The notes under the pieces were generated by a model. It did no database searches. It saw only the letters and a program-made list of their open reading frames with translations, and was not told where the DNA came from. This document shows positions 3,809-6,894 of a DNA stretch of 47,811 nt, piece after piece (position 1 is the first letter of the stretch; each line of letters opens with the position of its first letter). The stretch comes from a virus. Made by a program: the position numbers and the translations under genes. Location of the stretch: positions 1 through 47,811 of the IMG/VR virus record IMGVR_UViG_3300005253_000498. One strand, written 5' to 3'.

Positions 3809-4759
3809 CTAAGCCATCACCGCATTCTCGACCTCCTCCTCGGCGAACGCCCTAGCCTCTGCAGTACCATGCGAGGCGATCCACAGGTCGTCTACGTGAA
3901 CACCGTAAAACTCCGCCACTTTACTTTTTATCTTCCCGAAGTCCCCTTCTTCCATCGGGTCGAGGCATCCGAGGCGAGAACGACACCGCCTCATTGGGTC
4001 AGCAGCGGTTTGGAGGACACCTCGATTGTCCTTCACTGTCCCTTTGATGCGGGAGTACCAGACCTCGTCAAAGTCCTTTGGGACTGTTTGGCGAAGCTGT
4101 CCTGAGAGGAGGGGTTCGACCCCTTGGAGGGCTCCCTTCTTGTTCACGTTCTGATATTCATGGCAGATGAGGACGATGTTCTTCCCTGTGCCAAAGCACA
4201 CAGTCATGAACTTACTGAAGAGAATGTTCACAGCGCCGCGATCTTGAATCATCACAGGAGTCAATCCCTTCTTGTTCCGCTTAGACCAACTCTTGGACAA
4301 CTCAAGACGGTGTGTTTCTTGCAGTGCCTTGACAATAACCCCGGTAGTTAGACTGGTACCAGAGTCAATTATCAACGTGTCCCAGAACTGGTTGAATACG
4401 CGGCCATCGTTCTTCTCCGCGCAGTACTCAGGCCAGTCCTTCGGATCGACGTCCTCGTCCGCTACCCACTCGTCGATCTTATCGTTGGCATAATCGAATG
4501 TCACGTTCTTCGATTCGTCGAGGGAGGGAGGCGGAGTGATTGTCTCGTAGACGATGTCGTCCAAGGTACGATTGAGCTTGCCAGCCAAGATCGCCCACTC
4601 GACAGACTGCATACCATCGTCGAAGTCAAGAGTTCTGGTGTGAGGCAGGCCGTGTGCGATAGGCGTCTTCCGAGTACCGAACGGGCCGTATATCATGAGA
4701 TGCAGGCGCTTGCCTAGCGTCCCACTACTCAGTCCGGAATATGCCAGGGTCGTTGTCAT
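3809..4759 (-). CDS. Sak4-like RecA-fold ATPase (AAA_24 type)
   Basis: 316 residues. Walker A is GPFGTRKT (K31 and T32 after the chosen start) and a Walker B-like strand is TLIIDSGTS near residue 130. Proteins of this fold beside an exonuclease and a DUF669-type partner act as phage single-strand annealing or recombination ATPases. The frame is open to 4798, but the ATG at 4759 overlaps the upstream stop as ATGA and has GGAG nine bases upstream, so 4759 is preferred. The Walker A deviates slightly (GTRKT rather than GxGKT/S). Confidence 0.88.
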   Translation of the reverse strand: MTTTLAYSGLSSGTLGKRLHLMIYGPFGTRKTPIAHGLPHTRTLDFDDGMQSVEWAILAGKLNRTLDDIVYETITPPPSLDESKNVTFDYANDKIDEWVADEDVDPKDWPEYCAEKNDGRVFNQFWDTLIIDSGTSLTTGVIVKALQETHRLELSKSWSKRNKKGLTPVMIQDRGAVNILFSKFMTVCFGTGKNIVLICHEYQNVNKKGALQGVEPLLSGQLRQTVPKDFDEVWYSRIKGTVKDNRGVLQTAADPMRRCRSRLGCLDPMEEGDFGKIKSKVAEFYGVHVDDLWIASHGTAEARAFAEEEVENAVMA

Positions 4760-5724
4760 TGGTCTGTCTCCTCTCCTGCGACTGCTGAAGGATCCCATCT
4801 GCTTATGTCGAAGTTATCTCTCAACTCAAGGAGTCTACCTTCACCCCGGGGATTGAGAGAGTGAACAACGAAGAATCTGCACTTACCGTACCGCGTGCAG
4901 TCACCCCAGTTCTTGTCCCACATCTCAGGCTGATAGAGATGGTTCTCGAGCATGAAGTGAATCCGATCGACGATGCGCTTGACGTTACGTTGCCACTCAG
5001 CCAGGCGGAACTCATCGTATCGGAAGGTACGCTCAAAGAAGTTAAACGACTTGGAGATAGTGTACATCACGTCGACAGTTATCTCCCAAACGTCGTCAGT
5101 CATCATCTGCCCGGCAGACCAGACGTACCCCGGGAACTGAAAGGAGATCTCGAACTGATCGAAGTACGTGTCTCCCATCGCCTTGGTAGTTTTGTAATCC
5201 CACACTCTGACCTTTTTGTTACGAAGCACTCGACGGATAGAGTCCATCCGACCACACCAGCGAAGGCCGGTCTCTTCATCTAGCACATCGAAGTACTGCT
5301 CATTCCGAAGGACCTCGTACTCATTCTCCTTCTTGAGCCACCTCTCGACATAGGCAAAGAACTGCTCGATCATCCGATCCTTCGACCGCTTCACCTTATC
5401 AACGTCAGGTGTGAGATAGACAGGATAGGTCTCGTCAATCGCTTTTAGGCCAGCGATTATTCGTGCCTCTTTCCCTTCGTCAGCGGTTTCCATGAAGGCG
5501 AACATTGCTTCGTGCCAGCAAGTGCCCCAGTCAAGGTTACCGTCTTTGGTGGGGTCCTTTCGCTTTGGCCGAAGGCCGAGAACGTAGCGAAGGTAGAACT
5601 TGGAAGGGCAGTCCATAAAAGTAGATAACATAGATGCATCTATAACGGGGGGCGGCTTAGGAATTAAGCCGAATTTCTGCAGCAAATCCTGTCCTTTGGT
5701 TGAGACTACTGGAAGATCAGTCAT
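4756..5724 (-). CDS. Cas4/RecB-like PD-(D/E)XK nuclease
   Basis: 322 residues. Core motifs are C39 in DCPSKFYLRY, H71 in WGTCWHEAMF, an Asp in CGRMDSIRR, the DxK core in RVWDYKTTKAMG, and the following Gln/Tyr helix (ISFQFPGYVW). C-terminal cysteines in CTRYGKCRF could, with C39, hold an iron-sulfur cluster as in Cas4 and AddB, but only three clear ligands are seen. It likely resects DNA for the Sak4-like ATPase downstream, with an ATGA overlap. The frame is open to 5823, but the ATG at 5724 overlaps the stop of the HNH gene, and its first 34 residues match the N terminus of that gene at 30 of 34 positions. So 5724 is the real start and residues 1-34 belong to this protein. Confidence 0.92.
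   Translation of the reverse strand: MTDLPVVSTKGQDLLQKFGLIPKPPPVIDASMLSTFMDCPSKFYLRYVLGLRPKRKDPTKDGNLDWGTCWHEAMFAFMETADEGKEARIIAGLKAIDETYPVYLTPDVDKVKRSKDRMIEQFFAYVERWLKKENEYEVLRNEQYFDVLDEETGLRWCGRMDSIRRVLRNKKVRVWDYKTTKAMGDTYFDQFEISFQFPGYVWSAGQMMTDDVWEITVDVMYTISKSFNFFERTFRYDEFRLAEWQRNVKRIVDRIHFMLENHLYQPEMWDKNWGDCTRYGKCRFFVVHSLNPRGEGRLLELRDNFDISRWDPSAVAGEETDQ
5623..5724 (-). repeat. Duplicated 5' end, copy 2 (functional nuclease gene)
   Basis: The first 102 bases of the Cas4-like gene. They align without gaps to 6153-6254: 72 of 102 bases are identical by hand count, 25 of 34 codons differ, but only four residues change. The similarity stops exactly after the codon for Ser34. Confidence 0.9.
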
Positions 5725-6254
5725 GTTGTCCAGACCTTGCCGGACTGAATACGGCTGATATGAGATTGATTTACTCCGTAAGTTTTGGCGAGTTCTCCTT
5801 GCGACCTCTTTCCCTTCAGCCAACGTATTTCATTCGCTTCATTTCTTGTTAGTTTAGTAGCTAATATTTCTGAAGAGATACGTCCCTTAAATATCGCGTC
5901 TCTTATATTATCTGACTGTGACCCTATAAATAAATGGGCTGGATTTATGCAGATCCTTACATCGCATCGGTGAAGAACAAAGAGACCTAGAGGGATATAC
6001 CCTACGAATATTCTATATGAAACCCTGTGGGCGTTGTCCATCCTACAGTTGAACCAAAACGCTCCGTAGCCGCTTGAGTGTTTGGAAGCAATCCAGAGCC
6101 AACAATCAGTGTCTTTATCAAGAATAGCTTTACTGAGTAACCTCTCTGAAGCGCTGAGCATGGACGCGTCGATGACGGGAGGGGGTTTAGGTATTAAGGC
6201 AAATCGTTCGAGCAGATCTTGTCCCTTAGTCGAGACGACTTGTAGATCTGTCAT
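5721..6254 (-). CDS. HNH homing endonuclease fused to duplicate N terminus of the Cas4-like gene
   Basis: 177 residues. Residues 1-34 are a second copy of the N terminus of the Cas4-like nuclease (30 of 34 identical). From residue 35 an HNH_3-type endonuclease begins: WLWIASKHSSGYGAF, AHRVSYRIFVG, then LHRCDVRICINPAHLFIG and SDNIRDAIFKGR. Residues about 140-177 form a helix-turn-helix (RSQGELAKTYGVNQSHISR) typical of homing endonuclease DNA-recognition tails. The stop overlaps the ATG of the intact nuclease gene as ATGA. The arrangement looks like a homing gene that landed after codon 34 of the nuclease gene while a complete copy was kept or rebuilt downstream. Confidence 0.93.
   Translation of the reverse strand: MTDLQVVSTKGQDLLERFALIPKPPPVIDASMLSASERLLSKAILDKDTDCWLWIASKHSSGYGAFWFNCRMDNAHRVSYRIFVGYIPLGLFVLHRCDVRICINPAHLFIGSQSDNIRDAIFKGRISSEILATKLTRNEANEIRWLKGKRSQGELAKTYGVNQSHISRIQSGKVWTT
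6153..6254 (-). repeat. Duplicated 5' end, copy 1 (fused to HNH gene)
   Basis: Matches 5623-5724 at the protein level (30/34) with mostly synonymous base changes. After it the reading frame goes directly into the HNH endonuclease. See the entry for copy 2. Confidence 0.9.
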
Positions 6255-6257
6255 AGT

Positions 6258-6274
6258 TGTTCATTGGTTGAACA
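6258..6274 (-). promoter_or_regulatory. 17-bp palindromic boundary motif, site 1
   Basis: Read on the minus strand it is TGTTCAACCAATGAACA, a perfect 6-5-6 palindrome. It ends three bases before the ATG at 6254, in the place where a ribosome binding site would be. Confidence 0.8.
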
Positions 6275-6681: not shown

Positions 6682-6894
6682 TCAGATCTTGTTCTCGTCC
6701 AGCTTGTGGTCACCGCACCAATCGTGGGCGAATACAGCTGGATAACCGTTCATCGTTGGACAACGCCGGCGACAGCGACCGAGAGGTGCCTGCTCTTCAG
6801 GGGCAGGATTCGTCCTTGCTTTCTCCACGAACCACATACAACTGTAGCAGCTCATGTTCTCGCTCCGGTGTTTCCACGGATCGACGTCAGTCAT
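6682..6894 (-). CDS. Small zinc-binding phage protein
   Basis: 70 residues with CYSC near residue 16, CRRRC near residue 41 and a C-terminal DWCGDHKLDE. The arrangement CxxCxW...GRCRRxxPTxNGxP...DWCGDHK is common in small phage hypothetical proteins and suggests a zinc site. The role is unknown. It is the last gene before the 400-base non-coding gap and starts at the stop of the 6894-7109 gene. Confidence 0.8.
   Translation of the reverse strand: MTDVDPWKHRSENMSCYSCMWFVEKARTNPAPEEQAPLGRCRRRCPTMNGYPAVFAHDWCGDHKLDENKI

Follow-up and report, generated by a model that had tools for sequence, protein, structure and literature searches.

A phage HNH endonuclease gene that begins with the native start of the nuclease gene behind it: the probable footprint of one-sided homing

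The virus record IMGVR_UViG_3300005253_000498 was analysed over its whole stretch of 47,811 nucleotides, referred to here as the window. On its minus strand, the open reading frame of an HNH endonuclease is directly followed by the gene of an exonuclease, and both begin with a version of the same 34 codons. The features of the locus are as follows:

4756..5724, minus strand: intact gene of a PD-(D/E)XK (PDDEXK_1) exonuclease, 322 aa (Pfam, PHROG, relatives L003 and L004)
5623..5724, minus strand: copy B, the first 34 codons of the nuclease gene, foreign and apparently re-supplied (synonymous codons, GC3)
5721..5724, minus strand: ATGA overlap of the HNH stop and the nuclease start (sequence)
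5721..6254, minus strand: open reading frame of an HNH_3 homing-type endonuclease, 177 aa, fused in frame to copy A (Pfam, PHROG)
5721..6152, minus strand: HNH body, comprising the endonuclease and a C-terminal helix-turn-helix, with its left junction at 6152/6153 (alignment of relatives, GC3)
6153..6254, minus strand: copy A, the native first 34 codons of the nuclease gene, stranded and now the HNH N terminus
6259..6273, minus strand: inverted repeat GTTCA-N5-TGAAC just 5' of the native start codon (same arms and same place in L003 and L004)

Copy A (HNH codons 1-34) and copy B (nuclease codons 1-34) are alike at 30/34 residues and 72/102 bases, and 25 of the 34 codons are unlike, 21 of them synonymously. 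The likeness ends at codon 34/35, and the TGA of the HNH frame (5723-5721) overlaps the ATG of the nuclease gene (5724-5722) as ATGA, through which the nuclease is probably translated by translational coupling. This duplicated start had been described in the original prediction, and all of its figures were obtained again on recomputation. The match between the copies scores 152, whereas 93 was the maximum when HNH upstream regions were paired with the downstream genes of other loci in 3,750 mismatched combinations; chance is thereby excluded as its origin.

As such, both genes encode ordinary proteins. The nuclease gene matches Pfam PDDEXK_1 (2.5e-19) and the PHROG exonuclease family (3e-22). 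It had been taken for a Cas4-like nuclease, but PD-(D/E)XK (PDDEXK_1) exonuclease is a better name for it than Cas4 proper. The HNH frame matches Pfam HNH_3 at residues 75-116 (1.6e-8, 34.5 bits, cut-off 24.8) and PHROG HNH (1e-26). It keeps the invariant residues of the family alignment (C51, W54, H76, R77, H95, C97, D98, C102, P105, H107, N116, and D119), and all of the conserved His, Cys, Asp, and Asn residues of the HNH_3 family are found in it. The closest solved structure is I-HmuI (1u3e, E 9e-4), with modest similarity. When the HNH protein alone was used as query, no relative was found among the viral contigs searched, and the sequences covered contain no copy of the window HNH gene that lacks a fragment. 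The HNH protein of Myxococcus phage Mx9 (L013 1735-2835) carries several tandem C-terminal helix-turn-helix-like repeats.

The 34 residues at the head of the HNH protein could in principle form a functional N-terminal domain with a likeness to the nuclease, serving for instance in targeting or regulation. No stop interrupts the in-frame fusion, and apart from codon 1, only Met32 offers a good start; translation of the fusion may begin at either. An HNH family having this segment as its normal N terminus was therefore a possibility raised at the outset, but in the alignment the HNH relatives begin near residue 35 of the window frame and have no such segment, so that the 34 residues are not part of the HNH family. 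The AlphaFold model points the same way, with confidence of 56-66 at residues 1-30, rising to mostly above 89 as the chain continues into the core, and a domain of this kind is regarded as very unlikely. An endonuclease borne by an intron or an intein was also considered and rejected. No Rfam match occurs anywhere in the window, hence no intron was seen, and splicing is not needed because the nuclease gene 3' of the HNH frame is complete with its own start.

The native and foreign copies were distinguished with the only two uninterrupted relatives in the data, the virus contigs L003 and L004, which contain the same genes, have nucleases 81% and 80% identical in amino acids to that of the window, and lack the HNH gene. 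The HNH gene is thus polymorphic for presence and absence at this site, and the nuclease gene of both contigs is uninterrupted. Copy A shares 76/102 and 70/102 bases with L003 and L004, respectively, and copy B shares 63/102 and 57/102. Codon identity was then counted at conserved residues, with Met and Trp excluded. Codons identical to L003 number 12/25 in copy A and 104/218 in the nuclease body, but only 4/24 in copy B (B versus body, p=0.004; A versus B, p=0.03). With L004, copy B again falls below the body (p=0.011), and the difference between A and B is not significant (p=0.32). In the 30 codons past the junction, identity to L003 and L004 is already normal (12/28 and 15/28), and the boundary between copy B and the nuclease body is sharp when judged by codon identity to relatives.

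The surroundings of the two copies agree with this result. The inverted repeat GTTCA-N5-TGAAC lies directly 5' of the nuclease-start ATG in L003, in L004, and at copy A in the window, and a homologous small gene is located upstream of the copy A start and of the nuclease in both relatives. The non-coding stretch between the native start and the small gene shows weak similarity, in keeping with native surroundings. These comparisons identify copy A as the old nuclease start in its old place and copy B as the newcomer, since A has both its native upstream context and a normal level of codon identity to L003 and L004, and B has neither. The uninterrupted relatives, whose 5' ends had been proposed as the deciding check, resemble copy A in DNA and in upstream context. 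The original prediction had placed the recoded copy in the HNH gene, which is the wrong way round: the HNH gene holds the native copy and the intact nuclease gene the recoded one. The nuclease gene would accordingly be a chimera of foreign codons 1-34 and native codons 35-322.

The arms of the inverted repeat are kept among the window, L003, and L004, and its loop is changed; it is possibly an operator or a translational control element. A small cysteine-rich gene ending in CGDHKLDENKI is located upstream of the HNH gene in the window (6682-6894, minus strand) and downstream of the nuclease in L003 (2222-2527). Its position on opposite sides of the locus indicates that the local gene order differs between the two. 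The closest nuclease relative, L005 (95% in amino acids), ends before reaching the 5' end of the gene. A search for further nuclease relatives with a degenerate 5'-end pattern returned L003, L004, one chance match, and one distant family member, and no nuclease gene starting with copy B, the putative donor, was found among the sequences searched.

Base composition links copy B with the HNH gene. GC3, the GC content at third codon positions, is 0.53 in copy A, 0.40 in the HNH body, 0.41 in copy B, and 0.65 in the nuclease body, and the difference between copy B and the nuclease body is significant (p=0.009). Because copy B shares the low GC3 of the HNH body and not that of the nuclease body, the HNH gene and copy B look like a single imported cassette. 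The divergence between the copies lies in the tail of the family distribution: of the 34-codon family windows that agree at 30/34 residues, 2.5% share as few bases as A and B do, and 0.9% share as few codons. A donor of different composition would explain this divergence without selection for recoding.

Such selection belongs to another reading, in which copy B is a local duplicate, or comes from a near relative, and has been recoded to escape cutting by the HNH endonuclease and recombination with copy A. The rarity of such pairs among the family windows speaks for this natural rescue, as does the fact that A resembles B more closely in protein (30/34) than it resembles L003 (27/34), and yet A and B share just 7/28 synonymous codons. 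The shift of copy B follows the composition of the HNH body, however, as expected of an import, and composition by itself raises synonymous change, which leaves recoding under selection an unlikely origin. It is still plausible that the divergence of copy B, once imported, guards against self-cutting and against loss by recombination, as had been suggested. A tandem duplication of the nuclease 5' end within one genome, followed by HNH insertion and ordinary drift, would yield the same order of parts. It does not fit with the codon divergence and composition of copy B, which are unlike the rest of the same gene, nor with L003 and L004, which carry no A/B duplication; no HNH-less relative with a duplicated N terminus, a finding that would have told against invasion of the gene, appeared among the relatives examined. 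As the same layout also recurs beside endonuclease genes elsewhere, this history has very little probability.

This recurrence was surveyed in 249 HNH loci, drawn from viral contigs and bacterial genomes, by asking whether the N terminus of the downstream gene has a second copy upstream of or within the HNH frame. Tandem HNH genes (L292, L319, L230, and L095) and low-complexity and GC-rich frames were removed from the hits by hand. After curation, 12 loci in eight genes keep the layout: the window nuclease (score 152), an N6/N4 methyltransferase (L303, 131), a cytosine methyltransferase (L093, 116), SSB (L300, 70), a helicase (five loci, 60-66), NinB (L108, 61), a DUF6440 small gene (L074, 59), and a DUF3799 PDDEXK-like exonuclease (L098, 56). 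The helicase, NinB, DUF6440, and DUF3799 cases are individually modest, with null frequencies of 0.001-0.006. Like the window, L074 and L098 have the fragment joined in frame to the HNH gene. GC3 of the new 5' end is below that of the gene body in six of the eight genes (window, L303, L093, helicase, L074, and L098), significantly so in five, and near that of the HNH gene in most of the six; NinB is neutral and SSB shows the opposite pattern. HNH genes at or fused to host-gene 5' ends and followed by a complete gene, a search the original prediction had proposed, therefore exist, and its central claim, that the nuclease gene was invaded and its lost 5' end supplied from a diverged source, is supported both by these loci and by the uninterrupted relatives.

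Run on 3' ends, the test produced nothing convincing in 241 HNH loci. Its top hits were the 5' fragment of L303 again, structural paralogues, and low-complexity frames, and L261 was checked as a candidate and then dropped. From the top hits, eight phage HNH neighbourhoods were inspected, and none contained a duplication. That the window, being a metagenomic virus record, is an assembly chimera is extremely improbable: the frames are unbroken, the two genes overlap exactly at ATGA, and both independent contigs and bacterial genome assemblies show the layout again.

The helicase group was followed up in 80 loci (L323-L402), some of whose contigs are near-duplicates. In uninterrupted genomes, the helicase gene is overlapped or abutted by an exonuclease gene, annotated as Cas4-domain or YqaJ-like in GenBank phages. 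In 17 loci, the first 13-18 codons of the helicase are stranded upstream of an endonuclease gene, which is of the HNH_3 type in fifteen, Endonuclease VII in one, and GIY-YIG in one (L377, labelled by its motif and NUMOD domains); 29 further loci have an endonuclease gene without a helicase fragment. Every element at this site, whether HNH_3, Endonuclease VII, or GIY-YIG, has a sharp left boundary and is joined to helicase codon 13-18, and the HNH_3 insertions comprise two element types, one of them fused in frame to the fragment (L325, L344).

The GenBank phage MW202867.1 has an uninterrupted helicase with a fragment-type start. Compared with it, the stranded fragments share a mean of 30.1/36 bases and the new starts 21.5/36, the fragment being the better match in 17/17 loci. 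A comparison with all helicase loci lacking a homing endonuclease gene did not separate the fragment from the new end, because the search pattern had excluded fragment-type starts. The whole downstream helicase is often of another clade in this group, which fits a longer repair tract than in the window. The deposited start of the MW202867.1 helicase (L403 1294-1500) is extended by about 69 residues upstream, and the true start is probably the methionine of MLRDYQQR. The junction of Cas4-like exonuclease and helicase is a hot spot entered by HNH_3, Endonuclease VII, and GIY-YIG genes in different phage contigs (examples are L336, L348, L350, L354, L360, and L377), and another HNH-type gene probably enters it as well.

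Taken as a whole, the window locus is most probably the footprint of a one-sided homing event. The ancestor of the window phage would have been in co-infection with a donor phage whose version of the nuclease gene was more AT-rich and had the HNH gene just upstream. Close to codon 34, within the conserved VIDASMLSTFMDCPSKFYL region, the HNH endonuclease would have cut the ancestral nuclease gene. From the right-hand end, which would have found homology in the donor gene, copying would then have run leftwards through donor codons 34-1 and the HNH gene, and the left-hand end would have been joined illegitimately to the HNH gene, as no usable homology lay upstream of that gene. In the product, the HNH gene would continue the frame of the old codons 1-34 (A), and donor codons 1-34 (B) would follow on the old body, with the HNH gene using the native start site and the nuclease probably relying on ATGA coupling. 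The cutting, the repair route, the coupling, and the working of both proteins are what we infer; the anatomy of the window fits a homologous right and an illegitimate left junction, with sharp left boundaries seen in the helicase group and the donor being putative.

Since the same kind of scar is found in other phage genes, 5'-end swap looks like a recurrent way for such elements to spread. Free-standing homing genes are usually thought to need intergenic gaps, introns, or inteins, or to split the host gene. We give roughly even chances to a general mode of entry into genes, used by free-standing phage homing endonucleases of several families, in which the first 13-67 codons of the recipient are stranded, frequently turning into junk or a new N terminus, and a cut-resistant replacement start is delivered. 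Repeated swaps of this kind would explain harmless entry into essential genes, and would be natural counterparts of engineered cut-and-rescue gene drives. The scar may also be readable: the fragment would end at the probable cut site, and the new end would point to the donor by its composition, so that old transfers and target sites could be predicted from sequence.

In the literature searched, which included few subscription journals, no phage 5'-end case was found; relative to it, the 5'-end swap, the fusion of the stranded start to the endonuclease, and the recurrence over genes and endonuclease families appear new. Integrating elements are known to restore the gene they enter, such as SXT in the 5' end of prfC and e14 and phage 21 in icd. 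These likewise bring a diverged replacement for the displaced gene end, but use site-specific recombinases, whereas endonuclease homing is proposed for the window. The seg and mob genes of T4 are also free-standing endonuclease genes beside replication or recombination genes (PMC2988022); insertions of mobA and mobE split the host gene in two, and in the window a new 5' end instead restores the gene. According to the account given in a review, T4 experiments established that homing can be one-sided, with illegitimate repair at microhomologies (Parker et al. 1999, reviewed in PMC2988022). In that account of the td intron, homology serves to repair one side of the break and the other side is joined illegitimately, as proposed here; it is a laboratory observation, whereas the phage cases are deduced from natural footprints of free-standing endonuclease genes.

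The nearest precedent appears to be the mobile ORFs of fungal mitochondria that replace gene 3' ends, in atp6 of Allomyces macrogynus and in atp6, atp9, cox2, and nad3 of Glomus (PMC3630166). There too an endonuclease ORF lies in the gene, the displaced native end is kept, and the gene is completed by a foreign copy that has diverged. For Glomus, base identity to relatives is 91-98% in the native copy and 64-81% in the inserted one, and protein identity between the two atp6 ends is 91% (PMC3630166). The same signature is found in the window, where copy A is native-like and copy B is diverged and completes the gene. The fungal elements encode LAGLIDADG or GIY-YIG endonucleases and replace the 3' end; in the window, as if in mirror image, it is the 5' end of the gene that is replaced, and a phage HNH gene continues in frame from the stranded native start.
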